Source of the DNA: Ectocarpus siliculosus
Lineage: Eukaryota > Sar > Phaeophyceae > Ectocarpales > Ectocarpaceae
DNA length: 21,418 bases
Assembly (NCBI GenBank): GCA_000310025.1
Contig: FN648446.1
Coordinates: 87,905-109,322, forward strand
Direction of reading: 5' to 3'
Shown: positions 1-17,586 of the stretch, piece by piece
How positions within the stretch are numbered: the first letter of the stretch is position 1
Layout: each line of letters begins with the position of its first letter
Notes under the pieces: model-generated
Seen by the model: the letters and a program-made list of their open reading frames with translations, nothing else
What the model was told of the DNA's origin: nothing
Databases searched by the model: none
Made by a program: the position numbers and the translations under genes

Positions 1-288
1 GGGGGGGGGGGTGCCCTCTCAAGCGCGGAGCGGAGTGCAGATCAGTGTGCGTAGGGACAAACGTACTCACAAACGAAATTGATGTGGCATGGATGGCATT
101 GATCGAGTGCGCGAGGGGGGGGGCACACGCCTAGAGGAAAAAACGGTCATGGTTGGTATTTAGTGCCGCCCGTGAAGAAAGTGCACTGAACGAAAACACC
201 GCCAAATGCTCCTATTTACTACAACAACGAAACGACACGACACGACACGACATCAACAGCAACAACAAATAACGAACCATACGCATAC
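1..288. other. Non-coding flank of the myosin exon; contig-end G run
   Basis: Positions 1-11 are a G homopolymer at the very edge of the window. The rest lies just downstream (minus sense) of the myosin exon and should be intron. The next expected myosin exon would start with a motif close to GVLEAVR, and I could not find it. Near 150 there is an acceptor-like TTTTTTCCTCTAG on the minus strand, but what follows does not read as myosin. Positions 236-266 are a short CGACA/CAA-rich stretch. Confidence 0.5.
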
Positions 289-442
289 CTCCGTTCGCCA
301 GCTGCGCCGTGATCCTGCCGAGATCGAACTGCGACCGCACGTTCTCGTCGTTCGGCTTGAGGCAGCGAACGTAGTGGGGGTGAGTCTCCCCGATGGCCCC
401 CAGCAGGCTGTTGAGCTGGTTCTTGAACTGAGCCCCGACAGA
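289..442 (-). CDS. Myosin motor domain, single internal exon (partial gene)
   Basis: Myosins are actin-based ATP-driven motors. The 154-nt exon encodes about 51 residues, starting SVGAQFKNQLNSLL, then THPHYVRCLKPN, and ending ITAQLANGG. These match the conserved late part of the myosin head: the SH1/SH2-proximal region with the PH(Y/F)(V/I)RC(L/I)KPN motif. The exon is bounded on the minus strand by a CAG acceptor at 443-445 (phase 0) and a GTATGC donor at 288-283 (phase 1). The motif is almost invariant, so family identity is safe, but the class (V/VIII/XI-like or other) cannot be told from one exon. No other myosin exon is seen on either side. Upstream of it, where the rest of the head should be, comes a flippase gene instead. 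It is either a misjoined fragment, an exon flanked by very long introns, or a rearranged copy. Confidence 0.88.
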
Positions 443-1358
443 CTGTTTTCGACATCGTTGATATTTGAGTTTGCGCGCAACAAGGAAACGAGAAGAAACA
501 AACAAAAAAAACACACACACACACACAAAAGATGACGCCCCTAACGTCGAAGCATCTACGCGAAAATGTAAAGTAACACGTCTCTCTTGATTGGCATATC
601 ATCGTGGAAATGGTTCACGAGTACGTCTCGATAAATGAGTATACACCATTTGGGTCGTCCCTACCACGAAAACAGAGAGGGGGTGTCTACCATCGACGTG
701 AATGCATATCGCCGACGAGCAACAACACAACTTTGGCACAACAAAACAAACATAACATTTGACGTTCTAGCCAATCCAAGCGATTCCACCTGAGAAACGT
801 AGCCGCTTCGCGCACGACTCCGCCAGAAGCGTGTTCAAATTAAACACCACCAACACAAGTACCCAAGCGATTTGGTGTACCTCTGATGTCCGTCTTTGGG
901 CTTCCACGCGTCACGTGCTTGGTACCAAACTCCAGACCCAGCCAAACGGCACCTAGCCGAACCAACCCGGTCCAGCTCACAGCCTATTTTACTGCTATTA
1001 CCTCCCAGCCTGGCTCACGTGAACCGTACCTGCCAGAACAACACAACCCCAGCCCCAACAAAGCCCAATGCCAACCACAAAAACAAACCACAAAACCAAG
1101 CCGAGCCGAGAACGCTAGAGAGCCACTATCTTTACCTTCCCGATTGTTGCAGAACTACGGTAGAAAAAGGGAGTCGACAAACGTTGGGGGGATGTTGTAC
1201 CCTTGATGAAAGGGATCTCCACACCAATAATTGCCATACCAGCACCGCCATTTGCACGTCACACACCTGGGAAACGATGCCGCTTTGCCGGGCACCCCCT
1301 GCCCCCCTCCGCGCCGCCGAGCTAGCCCCCCCCCCGCCTCCGCCTTCCGCGCGAATAC

Positions 1359-10154: not shown

Positions 10155-13100
10155 CACAACAACAAAACAAAAACACGCCACAGCAGCAACGACAGCCAAC
10201 AACAACAACAACAACAACAGCAACACGCCGCTCACCTGCCCCAGCTCCTCGTTCAGCGCCATGGTCCGCACCAGCGCCGGCGTGTCCGTGTCCTCGTGGT
10301 ACATGTCCAGGTCCTTCGCCCACACAGGCACGAAACGCACCCGAAAACAGAGTACCACAAGAGAGTTACCGTCACGGAGTTGCAAAGGCAGAAACGTTTT
10401 AGGTGTATAGGCGACGGATTTGATTTGCCACAACAACAACAACAACAACAACAACAAAATCATCACGTCACCACCGCAACCACGAGCGACATGCCCCCTC
10501 TCTGTCGGGGAAAAAACCCTCCAGGCAGCCCACCTGCTTCATGAAGAACGCCTGGGAAAACTTGACCGTGCCCATGGACACGTACAGCGACACCGGGATG
10601 AAGTTGCCCAGCAGAAGAAAAAGGTACAGGAACTGGATGAACGTGGTCTGCAGAAAAACAACAACAGCACACCAAAGGGTCAGAAGAAGTTGCACAGGAG
10701 CACATGAGTGTTCCGGAACCAGAAGACGATAAAAAACGGTATGCGTACGACTGCTGCAAATAGCCGGTTAGCGCGGTCCATGCCAACCAATGAAAACGCA
10801 CCAACATACACACACGCACGCTTTTCTGTGATTAATCCGGAGAATAACCTAGCCTCCCCCATGCCGCCCCCTCACGGGGTCCCAGTTAGAGGGATTGATG
10901 AGCGTTTTTTGTTTTCAACCGCACTGAGACTGAGGTCTTTTCATTTGGGCAGCCGGTCACCGCGGTCGATGCTAACAATTAAGACACAGACACACACGCA
11001 TGTCTCCGCCGACTTTCGAGTGGACCACGCGCACGTACCTTCATCTGGTTCCCCCAGGAACCCACGTCTATGCGGAGGTACACGTGATCCTCCGCGGAGG
11101 TAGCGTTCCATACCAGAGACCCGACGGCTCCCAGGAAACACACCAGGCAGAGCAGCCGCACGATCCGCCACACCTCCACGTTCGTGCGCTGCTCCAGCCT
11201 CGACGTCTTGTGAGGGGGCTGTTCGAGCAGATGTTTGGTATAACGCGGNNNNNNNNNNNNNNNNNNNNNNNNNNNNNNNNNNNNNNNNNNNNNNNNNNNN
11301 NNNNNNNNTGACGGTGTAGGGGGGTATTCATGCAAACGTGTAAACGCATGCCGTATGCAGTCGTTAGACCACTGACTTTGGGGGGGGGCGGTTAGACCGC
11401 GAGACAAGATCCGTGAATTGTTTTGGTTCAAGCTCCGTTTTCTGCAGGGGGTGACCGCTATCGTTGCACAGACAAAAGCAGTCTTCATGATGGGGGGCCG
11501 GCGGTGGAAGAGGGGAGGGGGGGCGATGAGAGCACACTTGAATGGCGGAACCCCCACGTCTGCGTACAATGTATGCGCCTGTTGCCTTACAAGGGTTTTC
11601 TGAAACGACTGATCGTGGGTGTTTTGGGTATTGGAAAGGAAGCGAGGGTTGAAAAGGGGGGAGGGGGGAAGATGGACGTAGTCTCGCCTTCGGCACCATG
11701 CATGAAGCAAACAACCAACAAACGTCACAATTCGCTTCCCAACACACCAAGCCGACCATTTGCATTGAGAACAACAACGGAAAGCACCAACACCAAAACA
11801 CGCAAAAACGTAAAAATAAAAAAAAAAACAGAAGTTGGTACGTATGCGTCCACGAGTCTCGCGGCGCTTTTCGTTTCTTTGGTGCTCACGAGTGCAAAGA
11901 CGAAGAATGTGGCGGACGTTCGTGGCACACCCAAGGGGGTGACGCAGAATAGTGCCGGGCGCTCGTCGCACACCCTAGAGGGTGACGCAGAATAGTGGCG
12001 GACGCTCGTCGCACACCCTAGGGGATGACGCAAACTGGTGGCGGACGCTCGCGGCACACCTTCGCAGGGAGTGTTGCTTCTCTAATCGCCCCTTACGATT
12101 GATCGAAACACATGTGGCACCTTTTTCGGCGACAAAGATCACGACAGAAAACGTGGACTTCACCGTCTTTTCTACAAGCACACATTTTCTACCAAAAGGA
12201 CACTTGTCAACCCCCCCCCCCCCTCCCTAGAGGACAGGGATAAGATGTGCAAGAAATTTTTATGTAGTTTGTGGCAGAAAAGTAAAGAGCTCCCAAATGT
12301 TGGTGGTGTCTCTAGTAGGGGTAGGAACGGTGCTCCGTCTCGAAAGGGACGCGTGGTCAATGGTCAAATGACTAAGGCAAGCAACAAATGAGTACGCCCC
12401 CCTCCTCCCCTCCCCCCCTCCCCCCCCCCCAGGAGCTCACCTCTAGGGAGCTCATGACGATCTTGGTGTCCGGGCCGGTGTTGAGGACTAGCCCCACCAC
12501 CCACCGAGTGTTCCGCAACACGCAGCCCCGGAGCAGAAGGTTTCGCGTCTGGATCACCTCCCTGCGCGCGCGCGCGTGCGTGCGAACGTGAGTGTCAGAC
12601 TTGTGTTCTCTCATTATTTACCACCGATCGCGTCCAACCGGTCGACCAAATGAAATCACTTCGAGCGTGAAAAGGTGAAGAGAATAAAAGGGTCCCCGGA
12701 AGGGAGGGAGAGGGGACTAAGAATGGACGTTGCCCAGAAAAACTCAAAACAATTAAAGCATGTGTGTGTTCGTGTGACATGGTCAGAGACGACGACGTCG
12801 ACGGGGGGTGGGGGTGGGGGGGGGATCAAAATGCCGCCGTTTCGGCCTCGTTTCCATGGAAACCCCTTGATATGTTGCATGCTGTTCACAGGCTCAACCA
12901 GTGATAAGGTAAGAGGTGTGGGTATCAGGGAGAACAAGTGCGCGTGTTTTTTTTTTGGGAGAGAGAGTAGCGGGTAGTTGGCTGGGCTCTCCTTGAAATA
13001 CAAACAAGATTAGCAGCAGCAGCAACAGCAACCACAACAGCAGCACCAACGAACAAGAGTAACAACAGCAGCAGCACTAACACACAACAACGGCAACAAC

Positions 13101-16100
13101 AACAGCAGCAACAAGAGAAACAACAGCAACAGCAACAATAACAACACCATCATTATCACCACTACCAACACAAAACAATAACACCACCACCACCTCCACC
13201 ACCACTACTACCAACAACAATAGACACCCAAAAAACACACACCTGCAGGACCCGCCGTCATCGCCGGCCCCCTCCACCTCGATGGTCCCCGAGAAGTTAT
13301 CGATCAGCTTGTTCGGGTGCTCCATCACCACGCGCCCCTTGAGCGCCGCGGCGTCGCGCGGCGTCGACACCCGTCCGATCGTGGACCGGATGGCCTGTCG
13401 GATCTTGAGGTTAGTCTCTCCGTCGAGAGACTTGGTCTCGACGTAGCAGATGCCGGCCTTCGCCTGCGGGTTGGGCTCGTGCGCGCCCATCACCTGTGTA
13501 ATTACCGGCAACAACAACGCGGTGGAGGTGGCGGCGGTTGGTAGGGAAGGTCATGAGGTTAGTTGGGCTCACGGTAGGTGTTGGCCGGCAGCGACCGCGT
13601 TGAAACGTGCGTAAGGTGGCGGCGATTGGTGGGGAACGTTGTAAGGTCAGGTGGGCCGCTCGTGACCGGCCCATCACCGAAGTACGGCGGTGTGTGTTTA
13701 CCTTCAACAACAGCGTCGACAAGCGGCGGGGGTTGTATGGTTGCCATGTCGAAAGAGACGGAAGCACATGTGCGCTGGTTTGGCGGCGAGCTCGTGGTGG
13801 CCCTGATGAAAGGGCCCCAAGTCCGGTCAGATCAGGGCACATTTCCGGAATCAGGGTACAATTCTGGAGAAAAAGCAGCCGTGGCAGGGTATACCACCGG
13901 CAAATTGGGACACGGCAGGGTGAATGTGGACGCTGACCAATCAGCTGGGCTCATTTGACGCTGTCAAAAAGTGCGTACCCCGCTGAGTCGTTTTTCGACC
14001 AGGGTATATGCCCTATTGTTTGCCCTCCTCTTCACGGATGCATTCCCTTGCCCGCCCTTACCTTCCCGTCAACAACACCAAACGAAGCCGATGATGTTGC
14101 AATATTCCACGAACAGCAAAGATTCCAGCCGAAAGTATGCCCCGCCCCCCCCCCCCTCGCGAAAGCCTCTTTCCTCACCAGGAGATCCCCGGGTACACTC
14201 TCTCGGTTTTTCACCCAGCAGCAGATCCCCGACCTGTACATCCCTCCACTCCACACGGGGGAACTTTCCCGCCGAACGCTGCAGGTCCACGTCCAGCGCC
14301 CTTGTCGGGGAGGCATTGCCCTTAGGGTTGGCAGGATGTCGCCCCACATCCTGTTGCGGGGGGGGGGGGGCACCGGGGAGAGAGATGCGTGGAGAGGCAC
14401 AGGGGAGGGGTGGGAGAGAAACGCAACAGAGAGATCGAGAGTCACACAAAATGCGCTTGTTGTTTCTGGAAGCCTCGTACCCTACGACACAGTCTCGCCG
14501 TCTCCAATCTATTTCTATTTGATACATGCCTGAGACACCGAGACACATGTTGCAATCCCCCCCCTCCCAATGCAAAATCTTAAAACTCTTTCTCGCTGTA
14601 ACGGGAACGGCAGCATGAACGAAATGTTCTCCCTTTGCTCGTTTGCCTCTTGAGACAGGCAGAGAGAGCGTCCAGTCTGACGACCTACCCCTCCAACGGA
14701 CACGGAACCCCCCCCCCCTGCCACCACAAAACCAAATCGCTCTCTCGCAAGTGGCACCGAACCATCTACACGCGCACCTCGAGAATGGCAAACACCGCGT
14801 CCACGATAACGACCACCGACAGGGGGAGTAGGATGGTCGGCACACGGAACGTATTGGTGATCTCGGGGATGGTCTGGAGGGAAGCCAGCACCAGGAAGTA
14901 GGCGTTCGCCATCTTCCTCCTGGGGTGGAACTCTTCCATCAGGAACCTCGGCAAGAAGTCCCAATGCGTGTACTGTGGACGTGGCACGGGTTGTTTGTGC
15001 CGACGAAAATTGTATCGTGTCCCGGTTTACCGTTTGTTTCGATCGCGGTTCCGTTCCATTCCGGTACCCAGTTCGATTCCGTGGCATATCCCGCGGTTGT
15101 TCCGACGTCGGTTCCGGTTCGGCATGCAGTACCCGGCACGTTCCATCGCCGTTATTGCGTTCCGTGGGGTTCCATGTCGGTTCAACACGGGTTTTCGTGC
15201 CGTTCCATGTTGTTGTTGGCGCCCGCGGTGTCATTGGGGAACAGAAAAAAAGAGCAGGCAGAACGTATGACAAAGACAAGCAAGCAAAAGGCAGAGCATG
15301 AAAAAACGCAGTAGCAGCCGTCAGCGGTCGCAGTAAACAAACACACTGGCACGTTTCGTAAAAAAAAAAATGAGCTCGCCGGACGGGGCTCAGACCACCT
15401 CCTGTCAGTGTATGCATGTGCGATTGTTGTGTGCGGGGTAGAGAGAGGGGTAGAGAGCCGGGGGCACGATTTTGCCGACAATTCTCCGCTTTTTTCTTGT
15501 ACACGTGTATGTACTGTGCTGTACACCTCTGCTTTCGTGGGCTGCACTTCAGCCCGCGACAAAGCTTTTGCACAGCTATTTACTAAAGTACTACTGCACG
15601 TGCGGCTACCGATAGCTTGAGCAGCAGCTCTCACCCCTGCAAATGCGTGGAGATACCTCATATCAAGCATGTCTTTCGGGGTGTTGTGCTCAGCGATCTG
15701 GCAGAAATGTGGGGCAGTGGCATTGTTTGTGCAAACGCGAAATATATGCGGGTTTCGATACGCTCGGGGGCAAAGGGCTCGTCCTCTCATCGTCCGCAAG
15801 CGCTGCTGTGCCGAATGCCCTCGAGCCGAAACCGACCACCCAACCATTTTTCCGCCGACAATGTATGTTTTTTTTTTTTTTTTTGTTCACTTCAAATCAG
15901 CGCTCACAGAATCAGTGCTGTTTACTCCAACCCGTGATCACACAGAAGTGCCCTCTCTACCCTCCCCTCCTGCGGTACATTGCCTTCGATTTTTAATGCG
16001 AGAAGAGTTCAGCACTCTCTTCCCTCTGTGTACACACGAACCAGCGCTATCCACTAGGCTAGGAGCGGAAGCGAGAGAAAAACTCACTTTCCAAGGAAAA

Positions 16101-17586
16101 GCTCGCTTACGCCGGGATTCGAACCCCTGACCTGACCTCTAGAGGAATTCGGGGTTACCAACTAGACCACCGGGGCGATGTATGCAGAGCATACAATCAT
16201 TACAACATGAGCATCTCGCCGTTTGCGCACCGCGCAAGAGCTCGAATACACTACAGACCAGAGAAGGCAATATGCATCTGCTGTGCCGGCAACCTCACCG
16301 GAGTTCCTGATGGGTTAACTGCACACATGTACCCAACCCGACACGTCGCTTGAACTTGAACTTTCTTTTTTTTCTGGCGTACTTTTTTTTTTTTTGCCTG
16401 TGTTATATATATATATATATTTTTTTTTTTTCTCCCATCATTGGACTCTGTCGTCTGCCCCTCTGGCCCCCATCCTCCACTTCTACCAGCTAGACGACCC
16501 AACCGGGGTCACATAGGAGGGGGGGGGTTGGACCCCCCGCCTACGGTTCCTGCCTGAGATATTGTTATCGCGAGAAGGGTACAGCAATCCCTTCCCTCGC
16601 GACGGATGAAGTCGATCTAGTTTACTCACGACGAGCTTTGCAGCGCGTCGCTTCCAACTTAGACCAGGTTTTTGTTAGTGAGAAAAAATATGTGGATGGT
16701 TGACACCCGATCCCATTGTACCCCAATCTGCTGAATCTTGGGGAAGTAACTTGGTTGCACTTTCAAGTCTCCGTATTGTATCCTGGCTCACACGTACCAC
16801 CACCTGCCTTGTTTCAGAAATACGACTATGAACTTGCAACAGGTCCATCACGTTATGTTTCTTTGCTCACAGCAGAAGACTTCTGTATAAGTGTTGCAAT
16901 TTTTTGCTCATGCCGTCAACTCGTCACCCCCCGAGCAACCAATCAATGCGCTACACAGCAGCAGCGTCTATACATACGTACGACCTTGCCTAACGTAGAA
17001 AAATTGTCACGTCCATGCTGCCTCGGGATACGAATCACGGGGCGTTATTGTGGCGTCTCAAGGCCCCTTTCACACAGCGATAGCTCAGCACGTGGGATAG
17101 GGCGTCGCCATCTCTTCGCTTCCGGTCTCCGAGGTGTTCCATGTCGACGGAATCAATTTTCCCCGTCCAAACCTCCGGCATCCGCCCTATACCCCCCGCT
17201 AATTCCCCCGCACTCAGGCAGGGTTCCGTTTATTTATCCAAGAGAAACCAAACCAGGGTCCAAATAATCCAGTGCCGGCATGTACCTCTGTCTGTATCTG
17301 GTCCGCATGGTTGCTATTGTACGCATACGATCTTCGGTAAACAGCAGCCCGCCCGCGTATCTACATGTATCGCCCTTTGGCGTGTTGTGCTGATGCTGTG
17401 CTGACTCGGTCGTACCTTGCTGGTGCGGACGAAGTTGTTGCAGAACCAGTGATGCTGGTCGTCGTTGAGAGAAATTTCTCGATGGCGGCGCCCCTCCAAG
17501 TCCAACGCGGTCGTCCGGTCAGGCCACCCCCTGGGGTTCGAAGGCGGCTTTCCCTCATCGTTCCTCCTTTCCCTCCTGCTGCTCAT
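1616..17586 (-). CDS. P4-type ATPase (phospholipid flippase), 20-exon model, C-terminus missing
   Basis: P4-ATPases use ATP to move aminophospholipids from the outer to the cytosolic leaflet of plasma, Golgi and endosomal membranes, usually with a CDC50 partner. Exons (minus): 17586-17416, 14972-14778, 14350-14179, 13493-13243, 12561-12441, 11218-11039, 10647-10534, 10313-10236, 9489-9331, 8824-8734, 8384-7804, 7214-6982, 6512-6408, 5825-5432, 5064-4928, 4610-4526, 3765-3550, 3120-3070, 2465-2229, 1744-1616. Splice phases agree at every junction once one inserted base is allowed for in exon 3. The model is about 1233 residues. Motifs in order are DGET (13413-13424), PVSL in TM4 (10585-10596), DKTGTLT (catalytic Asp at 9469-9471), KGAD (5795-5806), TGDK (3640-3651) and GDGAND (1676-1693). 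TM1-4 are present. TM5-10 are absent from the window. Family membership is near certain; the subclass is not resolved. Confidence 0.97.
2229..2465 (-). CDS. Flippase exon 19: P-domain ([10 protein letters not shown] ... [11 protein letters not shown])
   Basis: 79 codons, phase 0-0, with acceptor CCCTCCAG and donor GCG|GTATGT. The second half carries [30 protein letters not shown] and DQKR, matching the P4 segment that precedes the GDGAND exon. The first 30 or so residues are a Gly/Thr/Asp-rich linker ([16 protein letters not shown]) that is not conserved in the family. A long overlapping frame at 1891-2823 is only a shadow. Confidence 0.95.
2526..2738. repeat. (TGG)n/(GGT)n trinucleotide tracts
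   Basis: Two GGT-type runs (2526-2552 and 2708-2738) joined by impure TGG/TGT repeats, lying in the intron just upstream (minus sense) of flippase exon 19. They account for the Thr-rich and Val/Gly-rich open frames here. Confidence 0.9.
3070..3120 (-). CDS. Flippase exon 18: short P-domain linker exon
   Basis: 17 codons, [17 protein letters not shown], between a CTGCCAG acceptor and a TCG|GTGAGG donor, phase 0. It sits where P4-ATPases have a variable acidic, helical stretch after the TGDK exon. An alternative upstream acceptor at 3133-3134 would add TGCQ in the same frame. It is short and weakly conserved, so it is supported mainly by phase and splice signals. Confidence 0.75.
3433..3495. 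repeat. (CAC)n(CAA)n microsatellite
   Basis: A CAC run changes into a CAA run, 55 to 117 nt downstream (minus sense) of the exon 17 donor. In the transcript it reads as (GUU)n(GUG)n. Confidence 0.93.
3550..3765 (-). CDS. Flippase exon 17: P-domain with TGDK motif
   Basis: 72 codons, phase 0-0. It starts [20 protein letters not shown] and continues [16 protein letters not shown] and ACQLL, which is textbook P-type ATPase P-domain. The acceptor CTTGAAG joins directly to exon 16 ending LMNE, and the junction matches the family only if the unusual GC donor of the previous intron is used. Confidence 0.97.
3810..4089. repeat. 91-bp tandem repeat, three copies
   Basis: Copies are at 3810-3900, 3901-3991 and about 3992-4089. 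Copies 1 and 2 are exactly 91 bp each and differ at only a few positions. Copy 3 is diverged in its second half with small insertions. The unit starts TTTATCGGTAATTGGGAAAA and includes TTTTACTGTTCGTTCAAGTAC. It is AT-rich compared with its surroundings and lies inside the GC-AG intron of the flippase. Confidence 0.95.
4526..4610 (-). CDS. Flippase exon 16: N-to-P domain connector, GC donor
   Basis: 85 nt, starting with the last base of an Arg codon, then [16 protein letters not shown] and [10 protein letters not shown]. This matches the helical connector before the (I/V)E.(N/D)L.LLG segment. The acceptor is CGAAAG. No GT donor fits the family boundary. GAG|GCAAGG at 4525-4520 does, keeps phase 0, and makes a GC-AG intron of 760 bp. 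Reading on to the next GT would add about 14 non-conserved residues and run toward a stop. Confidence 0.88.
4846..4920. repeat. Imperfect CAA/CAG trinucleotide repeat
   Basis: A CAACAG-type repeat starting about 8 nt after the exon 15 donor (minus sense). It reads as GTT/GCT repeats in the transcript. Confidence 0.9.
4928..5064 (-). CDS. Flippase exon 15: N-domain end (YAREGLRTL)
   Basis: 137 nt, phase 0 to phase 2. After a non-conserved lead ([12 protein letters not shown]) it reads [18 protein letters not shown] and DWFRAWDKR, matching the conserved HLE.YA.EGLRTL segment of P4-ATPases. The acceptor is CACGACAG at 5065-5066 and the donor is AG|GTGCGG. The phase matches exons on both sides. 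Confidence 0.95.
5115..5372. repeat. Direct repeat of about 100 bp, two intronic copies
   Basis: Copies at about 5115-5212 and 5272-5372 share GACATGG near the start, then GCGAGTCGT(T/C)GACATGGAAGC, a TGTTT(T/C)CC block and GTATG(G/T)CCAAAA. They start about 157 bp apart and have diverged by substitutions and small indels. Both lie in the intron between flippase exons 14 and 15. No coding role is visible. Confidence 0.85.
5432..5825 (-). CDS. Flippase exon 14: KGAD motif plus low-complexity insertion
   Basis: 394 nt. It opens [18 protein letters not shown], the KGAD ATP-binding motif of the N-domain. About 110 residues of Ser/Ala/Pro/Gly-rich sequence follow, with a HHHH run and no family similarity, before the gene returns to conserved sequence in exon 15. 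The acceptor is CGAGCAG (phase 2). The preferred donor is GAG|GTGACG at 5431-5430, and a second in-frame donor at 5419-5418 would add four residues. The open frame across the insertion and the phase agreement argue that it is translated. Confidence 0.92.
6129..6178. repeat. (CAG)n trinucleotide repeat
   Basis: An interrupted GCA/AGC repeat with AGGAGC interruptions, in the intron between flippase exons 13 and 14. Confidence 0.9.
6408..6512 (-). CDS. Flippase exon 13: N-domain ([19 protein letters not shown])
   Basis: A 105-nt exon with no internal ATG. It reads [19 protein letters not shown] then [16 protein letters not shown], one of the most conserved P4 N-domain stretches. The acceptor is CCCTTCAG and the donor GG|GTGAGA, phase 2-2, in agreement with exons 12 and 14. 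Confidence 0.97.
6551..6571. repeat. (GGCA)n tetranucleotide repeat
   Basis: Five tandem GGCA units. The complementary-sense CCTG repeat recurs at 9284-9304. Confidence 0.9.
6982..7214 (-). CDS. Flippase exon 12: N-domain ([11 protein letters not shown]) plus linker
   Basis: 233 nt, phase 0 to 2. After the CGTTCAG acceptor it reads [19 protein letters not shown], which continues exon 11's SSPDDEAL as expected (family: DE.ALV.AA..FGF.F..R). The last 55 residues or so are Gln/His/Pro/Gly-rich and unconserved. The donor AAG|GTGAAC splits an Arg codon completed by exon 13. Another frame over the same DNA (6929-7714) is a shadow. Confidence 0.9.
7804..8384 (-). CDS. Flippase exon 11: N-domain with a roughly 150-residue low-complexity insertion
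   Basis: 581 nt, the longest exon, phase 1 to 0. It starts [20 protein letters not shown] then IPE, and ends [11 protein letters not shown], both P4 landmarks that are usually a few dozen residues apart. Between them lies a single open stretch of Arg-rich, Gly/Asn/Tyr-repeat, QQQQQ and EEEEEE sequence. DSNGGGG occurs twice (at about 8088-8108 and 8124-8144). The acceptor is CCTCCCAG and the donor TTG|GTGAGA. The frame stays open across about 450 nt of repeat-rich DNA, which argues for real coding. Confidence 0.93.
8547..8755. repeat. Direct repeat duplicating the end of flippase exon 10
   Basis: Copy 1 (8547-8618) and copy 2 (8688-8755) both start ACCGCATCGCAT, contain AAACGG and a GCGC block, and end TTGGAGGTCTTC. 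Copy 2 includes the last 22 nt of exon 10, its GT donor and the start of the intron. Copy 1 lies wholly in the intron, and where the donor should be it has GGGAAG in place of GGTTAG. Confidence 0.85.
8734..8824 (-). CDS. Flippase exon 10: N-domain start ([13 protein letters not shown])
   Basis: 91 nt, phase 0 to 1. It reads [20 protein letters not shown] then [10 protein letters not shown], matching the family's F.F.D..LL..L motif. The acceptor is TAAAACAG at 8825-8826. An in-frame alternative, GTACAACAG at about 8883, would add 20 residues. The donor is ACAG|GTTAGC. The end of this exon is duplicated in the next intron. Confidence 0.9.
8945..8974. repeat. (CAG)10 repeat
   Basis: A clean GCA/CAG run in the intron between flippase exons 9 and 10. 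Confidence 0.95.
9193..9256. repeat. (CT)n dinucleotide microsatellite
   Basis: About 31 CT units, followed by a (CCTG)5 run at 9284-9304. It lies 75 bp downstream (minus sense) of the exon 9 donor and so reads as (GA)n in the flippase pre-mRNA. Confidence 0.96.
9331..9489 (-). CDS. Flippase exon 9: phosphorylation site DKTGTLT
   Basis: 53 codons, phase 0-0. It reads [20 protein letters not shown] then [10 protein letters not shown]. The Asp at 9469-9471 is the residue phosphorylated by ATP in all P-type ATPases, and the following QN.M.F..C/S..G..YG pattern is P4-specific. The acceptor is ACTACAG and the donor CTG|GTGAGA. Confidence 0.98.
9490..10235. other. Intron between flippase exons 8 and 9
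   Basis: 746 bp. No coding sequence is recognised. The right part carries CAG/CAA repeats (10127-10221). The 9600-9850 part is AT-rich with (AT)n at 9613-9622 and a short direct repeat, ATATTGTGATA, at about 9788 and 9808. Confidence 0.8.
10127..10221. repeat. (CAG)n and (CAA)n repeats next to exon 8 donor
   Basis: (CAG)n at 10127-10155 and (CAA)n at 10198-10221, the latter ending about 15 nt inside the intron from the exon 8 donor. A related (CAA)n lies at 10429-10458 in the preceding intron. Confidence 0.93.
10236..10313 (-). CDS. Flippase exon 8: TM4-to-P-site linker (DLDMY ... NEELGQ)
   Basis: 26 codons, phase 0-0. It reads [20 protein letters not shown] then NEELGQ, the highly conserved P4 stretch just before the phosphorylation site. 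The acceptor is GGCGAAG and the donor CAG|GTGAGC. Confidence 0.97.
10534..10647 (-). CDS. Flippase exon 7: TM4 with the PVSL motif
   Basis: 38 codons, phase 0-0. It reads [20 protein letters not shown] then [18 protein letters not shown]. The P(I/V)SL motif in TM4 replaces the cation-ATPase PEGL and is diagnostic of lipid flippases, where it lines the lipid path. Here the second residue is Val, a conservative change from the common Ile. The acceptor is TTTCTGCAG and the donor CAG|GTGGGC. Confidence 0.97.
11039..11218 (-). CDS. Flippase exon 6: TM3
   Basis: 60 codons, phase 0-0. It reads [20 protein letters not shown] followed by a hydrophobic run ([16 protein letters not shown]), matching the K.S.LE...N basic stretch and TM3 of P4-ATPases. 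A luminal loop follows to GNQMK. The acceptor is CTCGAACAG and the donor AAG|GTACGT. The assembly gap begins 30 nt upstream of this exon. Confidence 0.95.
11249..11308. other. Assembly gap (60 N)
   Basis: A run of exactly 60 undetermined bases. It lies in an intron, so no flippase coding sequence is lost here as far as exon phases show. Confidence 1.
11909..12060. repeat. 43-bp tandem repeat, about 3.5 copies
   Basis: Copies are at 11909-11951, 11952-11994 and 11995-12037, with a partial copy from 12038 to about 12060. The unit starts GTGGCGGACGCTCGTCGCAC and includes CCCTAGAGGGTGACGCAGAATA. The first three copies are exactly 43 bp and differ by scattered substitutions. The period is not a multiple of three. 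Confidence 0.95.
12441..12561 (-). CDS. Flippase exon 5: actuator domain end (LLLRGC.LRNT)
   Basis: 121 nt, phase 2 to 0. It reads [20 protein letters not shown] then [20 protein letters not shown]. The NLLLRGC.LRNT...GLV..TG.DTK string is a P4 hallmark. The acceptor is CGCGCAG and the donor GAG|GTGAGC. Confidence 0.97.
13005..13215. repeat. 200-bp mixed CAA/CAG/CAC trinucleotide array
   Basis: Nearly all bases fall in CAN triplets, starting about 30 nt after the exon 4 donor on the minus strand. In the transcript this reads as a long GUU/GUG/CUG-rich block. Confidence 0.92.
13243..13493 (-). CDS. Flippase exon 4: actuator domain with DGET
   Basis: 251 nt, phase 0 to 2. It reads [20 protein letters not shown], with DGET at 13413-13424 (the loop that drives dephosphorylation, equivalent to TGES of cation pumps). 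It continues with [16 protein letters not shown], matching the family's E.PN..L..F.G.. segment. The acceptor is TTACACAG and the donor AG|GTGTGT. Confidence 0.98.
13528..13657. repeat. Direct repeat of about 43 bp, two copies 86 bp apart
   Basis: Copy 1 (about 13528-13570) and copy 2 (about 13614-13657) share GGTGGCGGCG(G/A)TTGGT, GGGAA, a GGTTA/GGTCA block and GTGGGC-like ends. It is intronic, between flippase exons 3 and 4. No other element is recognised in 13571-14178. Confidence 0.75.
14179..14350 (-). CDS. Flippase exon 3: start of actuator domain, with apparent +1 frameshift
   Basis: The exon starts after GCAACAG. It reads [20 protein letters not shown] and then [17 protein letters not shown] in one frame. 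The next expected motif, [12 protein letters not shown], is present but one frame over. Both ends are phase 0 relative to neighbours, yet the exon is 172 nt rather than 171, which agrees with a single extra base. The likeliest site is the three-base C/G run at 14214-14216. A sequencing error in a homopolymer is the simplest cause; a true inactivating mutation is possible. The donor is CTG|GTGAGG. Confidence 0.9.
14778..14972 (-). CDS. Flippase exon 2: TM1-TM2
   Basis: 65 codons, phase 0-0. It reads [20 protein letters not shown], then TM1 ([18 protein letters not shown]) and TM2 ([19 protein letters not shown]). This matches the P4 N-terminal KYT..TFLPK.L.EQF....N.YFL pattern. The acceptor is CGTCCACAG and the donor GAG|GTGCGC. 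It joins in frame to exon 1, which ends NNFVRTSK. Confidence 0.97.
15041..15212. repeat. Degenerate GGTTCC/GTTCCATT minisatellite
   Basis: GTTCC occurs about ten times at irregular spacing, mixed with GGTTCGG and CCGGTACC variants. It produces a pseudo-periodic minus-strand peptide with repeated NGT and RNRTG strings. No clean unit length can be set by eye. Confidence 0.6.
15861..15867. repeat. Left target-site duplication (ATGTATG)
   Basis: A perfect 7-bp match to 16178-16184, directly abutting the A tail of the retroposon. Confidence 0.65.
15998..16026 (-). repeat. Bulged hairpin, copy a (in the SINE's second tRNA-like block)
   Basis: On the plus strand: outer stem GAG/CTC, inner stem AAGAG/CTCTT, loop of nine (TTCAGCACT) and a CC bulge on the 3' side. 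It occupies the place of the T arm of the second tRNA-like block. Copy b at 16568-16602 has the same architecture with 25 of 29 bases identical. Confidence 0.7.
16111..16177 (-). pseudogene. tRNA-like sequence (SINE head), degenerate
   Basis: The A and B boxes are intact and spaced as in a tRNA, but the acceptor stem pairs over only about four bases and no credible anticodon arm forms. It is best read as the retroposon head rather than a working tRNA. Its D-arm region resembles a GGTGGTCTAGTTGG-type tRNA. Confidence 0.7.
16178..16184. repeat. Right target-site duplication (ATGTATG)
   Basis: It abuts the tRNA-like head. The overlapping GTATGC-AGA-GCATAC palindrome (16180-16194) is probably incidental. 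Confidence 0.65.
16420..16510 (-). mobile_element. Possible second tRNA-like retroposed fragment with A tail
   Basis: On the minus strand it starts GACCCCGG, has an A-box-like GTCTAGCTGGTAGAAG near 16499-16484, and runs about 80 nt into 12 A (16431-16420) followed by (TA)n. It resembles the head of the 15868-16177 element (CCCCGG, TCTAG(T/C)TGGTA). No good B box and no target duplication are visible. Confidence 0.45.
16568..16602. repeat. Bulged hairpin, copy b
   Basis: On the plus strand: TCGCGAG pairs with CTCGCGA (7 bp), AAGGG pairs with CCCTT (5 bp), the loop is TACAGCAAT, and a CC bulge sits on the 3' side. It has the same shape as copy a at 16000-16026, with a compensatory A-T to G-C change in the inner stem. 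Confidence 0.75.
17416..17586 (-). CDS. Flippase exon 1: putative start and N-terminal motif
   Basis: 57 codons from ATG at 17586-17584 to donor AAG|GTACGA. The end reads [20 protein letters not shown] then SK, matching the P4 N-terminal R.I.lN......N.(I/V)RTSK that continues as KYT in exon 2. The start before it ([13 protein letters not shown]) is a basic, variable tail. It is the first ATG in the open frame; an in-frame stop lies at 17716-17718. A (CTG)n run at 17594-17621, read as (CAG)n in the mRNA, ends 8 nt before the start codon. A further 5' exon cannot be excluded. Confidence 0.88.

Follow-up and report, generated by a model that had tools for sequence, protein, structure and literature searches.

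The window analyzed here, a stretch of 21,418 nucleotides from Ectocarpus siliculosus, carries on its minus strand a set of tRNA-like promoter signals followed by an A tail, and the question that it raises is what these signals belong to: a mobile element built from one tRNA, a mobile element built from two, or ordinary noncoding DNA. A sequence-only reading had taken them for an intact-looking retroposon with two tRNA-like blocks in tandem. All of the signals behind that reading (an A box, a B box, a second D-arm-like block, a tail of 17 A's, and a perfect pair of ATGTATG repeats) are present, and the locus is a minus-strand SINE copy that runs from window position 16177 to 15868 and begins with CGCCCCGG. 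Along that strand come the A box, the B box, a run of four T's (T4), a run of five T's (T5), the D-arm-like block (block 2), the body, and the A17 tail, with ATGTATG directly outside both ends (Table 1). The pattern TRGYNNARNNGG-N32-GGTTCGANNCC, which joins the A box to the B box, is found at 16169-16115 and nowhere else in the window, and it arose in none of 100 dinucleotide shuffles. The D-arm block TAGCCTAGTGGATAGCGC, at 16061-16044, is likewise the sole match in the window at up to one mismatch, with 0.00 expected.

Table 1. Parts of the SINE copy and its flanking repeats, in window coordinates
Feature	Position	Strand	Basis
Target-site duplication, tail side (ATGTATG)	15861..15867	.	Sequence and family duplication test (window copy = L009, 7 bp)
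A17 tail, the 3' end of the element (T17 run on the forward strand)	15868..15884	-	Sequence
SINE body and 3' region	15885..16043	-	Family alignment, tail-pattern count
Second tRNA-like block: seven bases plus D-arm-like TAGCCTAGTGGATAGCGC; consensus 114-138	16044..16068	-	Pattern searches
T5 run, consensus 100-104; second polymerase III terminator-like run, between the tRNA-like blocks	16078..16082	-	Sequence, copies
T4 run, consensus 83-86; starts three bases past the tRNA-gene frame	16097..16100	-	Sequence, copies, tRNA ends
Head: 73-nt tRNA-gene frame, A box at position 8, B box at 52	16104..16176	-	Pattern and geometry
Last remaining base of the 5' leader; family consensus CCGGTC, usually with G before it	16177..16177	-	Copies
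Target-site duplication, head side (ATGTATG)	16178..16184	.	Sequence and family duplication test

The SINE shares its strand with exons of what we take to be a P4-type flippase gene, on the strength of two motifs of 19 and 11 residues; these exons lie at approximately 14760-15030 and 13077-13517, with more towards 1598. Roughly 0.8 kb separates the SINE from the most 5' exon that could be read, and the SINE, being on the upstream side, lies either in an early flippase intron or in front of the gene. Window positions 212-526, past the flippase end and also on the minus strand, hold a myosin-motor-like frame with the motif HPHYVRCLKPND.

The possibility that tRNA-like signals had simply come together by chance in intron or intergenic DNA draws on the behavior of the B box, which on its own is expected 0.26 times per window and arose in 22 of 100 shuffled windows, but copy number refutes it. 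In the 189,456,909-base, 492-contig assembly, a 27-base head pattern had 828 matches (419 + 409) at up to two mismatches and a tail 22-mer (the last consensus bases plus six A's) had 1040 (522 + 518) at the same threshold, while the reversed-pattern control of each gave 0. The block-2 pattern, which carries two differences from the consensus, matched at 132 + 142 places. The family thus comprises roughly a thousand copies, as would be expected from the proposal that the source genome holds many of them, and the hundreds of copies, the empty controls, and a 300-bp consensus leave a chance assembly with next to no probability.

We analyzed 90 distinct copies, consisting of the 30 best matches to the window (the window copy included) and 60 of the exact head matches listed. 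The shared 5' head and 3' tail that had been predicted were found, in that 74 of the 90 copies extend to both; 5' sequence is missing from 13 and 3' sequence from 5, and two copies belong to both of these groups. Neither of the outcomes that had been named as fatal to the retroposon reading, a single-copy element or copies with other end points and no duplications, was seen. A consensus built from 73 copies, again including that of the window, is 300 bases long plus the A tail, and it opens with the leader CCGGTC; among the 48 copies with an exact CCGGT, 31 have a G at -1. Divergence from this consensus ranges from 0.3% to 22.5%, with a median of 2.7%; this is likely to be an underestimate, since the copies had been picked for their likeness to the window or for an exact match to a pattern. 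The exact 27-mer used for sampling spans consensus 56-82 with the B box inside it, T4 (from 83) lying just outside and T5 starting at 100, and so the conservation of the B box among copies (0.996) is not independent evidence. At 7.0%, the window copy ranks in the top five of the 73 for divergence and is old relative to the sampled copies. It starts one base before the tRNA-like block, which means that most of the CCGGTC leader is missing; its divergence and its shortened 5' end both correct the description of the element as intact-looking.

Some copies are truncated at the 5' end. Of 100 exact tail places listed, 88 were used, and 38 of these had a listed head or block-2 match nearby and 50 did not; five of 11 places drawn at random from the 50 comprised two strongly 5'-truncated copies and three long, diverged ones. 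L137 retains the consensus from position 247 onward and L140 from 138 onward. A search of viral contigs with exact 25-base head and 23-base tail patterns gave 0 and 0 matches, in a collection from which the host's own records may have been excluded.

Consensus positions 7-79 have the geometry of a 73-base tRNA gene, with the A box at 8 and the B box at 52. Five of the eight distinct tRNA sequences that we compared (organellar ones included) are 73 nt long, and the B box falls at 52 in all five and the A box at 8 in four. Past the end of this frame, T4 begins at +3 and T5 at +20. We set these positions beside 24 distinct nuclear tRNA 3' ends (30 loci less four that are mitochondrial or mitochondrial-like and two duplicates), a sample made up of the best-scoring genes and of few isotypes (Lys, Thr, and Met by ARAGORN; Asn by reading). 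The first run of at least four T's was located at exactly +3 in 12 of the 24 and at +5 or nearer in 19; it was four long in 3, five long in 10, and longer in 11. An additional run of at least four T's occurred at +21 to +23 in 6 of the 24. When the body of the element was shuffled 5000 times, a first run at +5 or nearer appeared in 3.2% of the shuffles, and such a run together with another at 6 to 25 appeared in 0.2%.

The runs are also kept by the family. Of the 73 copies, 69 retain a run of at least four T's where T4 stands and 68 do so where T5 stands (T5 itself in 61). Both are present in all of the 20 least diverged copies, the second being a T4 in three of them, and so the T runs of young copies equal in length the runs at which tRNA genes of this genome end; they stand about 200 bases before the tail. 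Because T4 and T5 sit where the sampled tRNA genes carry their terminators, the element has the appearance of a complete tRNA gene, terminators included, to which the 5' portion of a second tRNA has apparently been added.

The many dispersed copies, common ends, A tails, and 5' truncations, together with the paralogous empty sites of other copies described below, give good support to a retroposon family with a tRNA-like head. The head gave no tRNA match with Rfam covariance models or ARAGORN. In a nearest-parent comparison with 30 tRNA loci (8 distinct sequences), the head scored at best 14.0, while 50 shuffles reached no more than 12.8, and the score of the head comes from the T-arm side only. 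We named no tRNA parent for the head. Its A box presumably resembles that of glutamate tRNAs.

At L136, a SINE copy beginning GCCGGTCGCCACGGTGGTCT... starts about 25 bases past the end of a nuclear tRNA gene, directly behind the T runs of that gene. A 31,036-base contig, C295, holds a mitochondrial block with large-subunit rRNA, tRNAs, and a frame that we read as ATP9-like, after which the order is trnM-trnL-trnH-trnC-trnN-trnF and a frame that we read as RPS8-like; a table in the Dictyota coriacea paper (PMC12565469) likewise has trnM-trnL-trnH-trnC-trnN-(trnK)-trnF-rps8. The EsV-1-7 domain family, which according to the Ectocarpus transposable-element paper (PMC12477816) has proliferated in brown algae, gave 150 scored matches from 880 candidates in the assembly and none in 14 control genomes; with the mitochondrial gene order, this expansion marks the genome as that of a brown alga. 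A search of the assembly for Photo_RC (psbA/psbD) gave no match. Part of this tRNA cluster is repeated at C17:5797970-5798443 (L119), near the end of a 5.8-Mb contig, and represents either a mitochondrial insertion or a misjoin.

Whether the element contains a second tRNA is a separate question. Consensus 114-138 resembles the first seven bases and the D arm of a tRNA, lies 34 bases after the first frame, and has the same orientation; its D arm resembles, we presume, that of arginine tRNAs. The consensus has no B box at tRNA spacing after block 2, a pattern search for tRNA genes with the D-arm end TGGATAGCGC followed 25-54 bases on by the exact T loop GTTCGANTCC found 0, and the score of block 2 against the eight distinct tRNA sequences (12.5) was no better than that of shuffles (14.8). 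A second D-arm-like block thus exists, as the sequence-only reading had it, but since it lacks a B box and no parent tRNA gene was found for it, a composite of two tRNAs is a plausible reading of the sequence rather than a result.

The same absences, together with the lack of a covariance-model match, speak for a simpler structure with one tRNA head only, in which the D-arm-like stretch would be a chance or decayed resemblance within an unrelated body and the T runs would have nothing to do with terminators; at least two runs of four or more T's do occur somewhere in 18% of shuffled bodies. Against this, the D-arm pattern is 18 bases long with none expected in the window, block 2 has the orientation of the first frame and begins 34 nt after it, and T4 and T5 are placed as in the sampled tRNA genes of this genome. 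We give the single-headed structure a sizable chance of being correct, short of an even one.

We then asked how copies had been inserted. The perfect ATGTATG pair had been read as a target duplication, with the expectation that each copy would have its own. For 73 copies, we measured the longest duplication near both junctions and compared it with 300 shuffled pairings of the flanks. The mean was 3.53 bp, versus 2.80 bp after shuffling (largest shuffle mean, 3.15 bp); duplications of at least 6 bp were found in 10 of the 73 copies versus a shuffled mean of 0.97 (largest, 4), and duplications of at least 7 bp in 8 versus 0.33 (largest, 3). The pair in the window, scored as CATACAT, is among these eight and so belongs to a class that exceeds chance. 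A second test, in which tail bases were left out, was weaker (mean, 4.09 versus 3.76; at least 7 bp in 3 of 74 copies versus 0.95 expected), and duplications or inverted repeats further outward showed no consistent excess. We concluded from the two tests that target duplications are real, though short and confined to part of the family: the expectation of one per copy holds only in part, most copies having no clear duplication.

Among the retrieved loci, a paralogous empty site was found for 4 of 84 copies, with duplications of 6, 2, and 0 bp and one that was unreadable. The empty site of L020 has AACACT once; the filled site has it on both sides of the element, with ten extra bases between the left AACACT and CCGGTC. 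That of L084 shows no duplication, the loss of about one base, and eight extra bases. That of L073, from a paralogue only 72% alike, shows a two-base overlap and two to four extra bases, and in L029 the left flank could not be followed to the junction. A single locus, L143, contains the empty site for both L020 and L084. At the left junctions of L020, L077, and L084, 5-10 nt of extra sequence lie between the edge of the duplication or empty site and the CCGGTC leader. The short duplications, the extra 5' bases, and the truncated copies would fit target-primed reverse transcription with imperfect 5' ends. At L054, a SINE copy lies within an inverted repeat some 20 bases long (ATGACTCTTTA... / ...TAAAGAGTCAT), and its target was perhaps a hairpin element.

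The A tail and the 5'-truncated copies agree with mobilization by a LINE. No LINE partner emerged by co-location. A hand-chosen comparison of the 88 exact tail places with 45 of 150 listed reverse transcriptase (RT) places (the 150 having been scored out of 1041 candidates, and three of the 45 lying on contigs with no listed tail) gave one same-strand pair, with the tail 5,955 bases downstream and none closer; in these partial lists we judged the pair to be a chance one. L137 was rejected as a LINE 3' end, since the 258 bases upstream in it come from another repeat family and what it has in common with the SINE is a 5'-truncated SINE end; L143 was rejected because it has no common tail. The other family, L137 1-258, is 76-84% alike among 39 other places scored and is clustered on several contigs.

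These comparisons bear on a further alternative, that the element is a nonautonomous LINE derivative of the RTEX-N1 kind, transcribed by polymerase II or from a neighbor, in which the tRNA-like boxes are a relic. Nearly all sampled copies contain the T4 and T5 runs, which would be an obstacle to polymerase III, and passages of the Ectocarpus transposable-element paper (PMC12477816) place abundant short LINE-dependent elements whose 5' origin is not known under LINEs. On the other side, the A and B boxes are at tRNA spacing, a short 5' leader is common to the copies, and no LINE with the 3' end of the element was found in the partial lists. We regard a LINE derivative as improbable.

We consider it very probable that the element is a tRNA-headed brown-algal SINE, spread by LINE copying of a polymerase III read-through RNA and founded by tRNA read-through. 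Transcription by RNA polymerase III from the head and reverse transcription by a LINE in trans are established for SINEs. Here, the A and B boxes would direct polymerase III to initiate at the leader (G/CCGGTC), and some polymerases would read through both T4 and T5 to give an RNA of about 300 nt with an A tail; because T4 and T5 would be expected to stop the polymerase before the tail, the full-length RNA is an assumption of this model. A host LINE would then copy the SINE RNA in trans into a nick by target-primed reverse transcription, a process that may often leave short target duplications or none and extra bases at the 5' junction. The founder would have been an RNA that started in a tRNA gene, crossed the terminators of that gene by read-through, and took in the 5' part of a second one, either a tRNA or a tRNA pseudogene. 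A more specific proposal, in our judgment on the doubtful side, is that the family has kept both terminators and that each copy would make two RNAs, a tRNA-like RNA of approximately 80-105 nt terminated at the T runs and, rarely, a full-length product of read-through; the latter would be the sole retrotransposable form and would set the rate of transposition.

A family of about a thousand copies, some of them young, would supply insertion markers for brown algae. Should the internal T runs indeed work as terminators, the family would also offer a testable retroposon whose spread depends on polymerase III read-through, and it would preserve a snapshot of the birth of a SINE from a tRNA transcription unit. 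Passages from brown-algal genome papers put the SINE fraction at 0.0024% in Nemacystus, 0.003% in Undaria, and 0.008-0.009% in Cladosiphon, and the Saccharina genome paper counts SINEs among the major repeat classes, with no family described in the passage concerned. None of the best-matching papers listed in a literature search that covered few subscription journals dealt with a brown-algal SINE family with a polymerase III head. As far as we checked in the literature, the element represents a brown-algal SINE family with a tRNA head that is new but ordinary in kind.

How it compares with known systems depends on which part is considered. Single-tRNA SINEs with poly(A) tails consist of a tRNA head, a body, and an A tail and have a polymerase III promoter. 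The brown-algal element likewise has a tRNA head, a body, an A tail, and a predicted polymerase III promoter, but it differs from them in its second D-arm block and in the T4 and T5 runs that immediately follow its tRNA frame. The Twin SINE of Culex pipiens reportedly has two fairly complete tRNA-related regions and was proposed by Feschotte et al. in 2001 to derive from a dimeric tRNA precursor. It shares with our element the tandem tRNA-related regions and the kind of origin proposed; its host belongs to a very distant lineage, and the second region of the brown-algal element, unlike that of Twin, is a D-arm-like part with no B box, and two internal terminator-like T runs are present.

Dimeric SINEs are called quite widespread in passages of one paper (PMC9191728), where Sbg9 of Blattella germanica is given as two whole SINEs joined. 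Going by that description, Sbg9 resembles the brown-algal SINE in having more than one promoter-related unit per element and differs in that whole SINEs were joined, as opposed to the partial block 2 seen here. From the brown algae themselves comes RTEX-N1_Ec32 of Ectocarpus, described in PMC12477816 as an element of about 600 bp with more than 6000 copies, a 3' end in common with RTE-X LINEs, and a 5' part of undetermined origin. Like the family studied here, it is an abundant short brown-algal element that looks LINE dependent and was suspected of being a SINE; the present family, with its 300-bp length, tRNA-type head, and poly(A) tail, is set apart from it by description only. What is unusual in the brown-algal SINE are its retained internal terminator-like runs of a tRNA gene, an apparent partial second tRNA, and weak target duplications.
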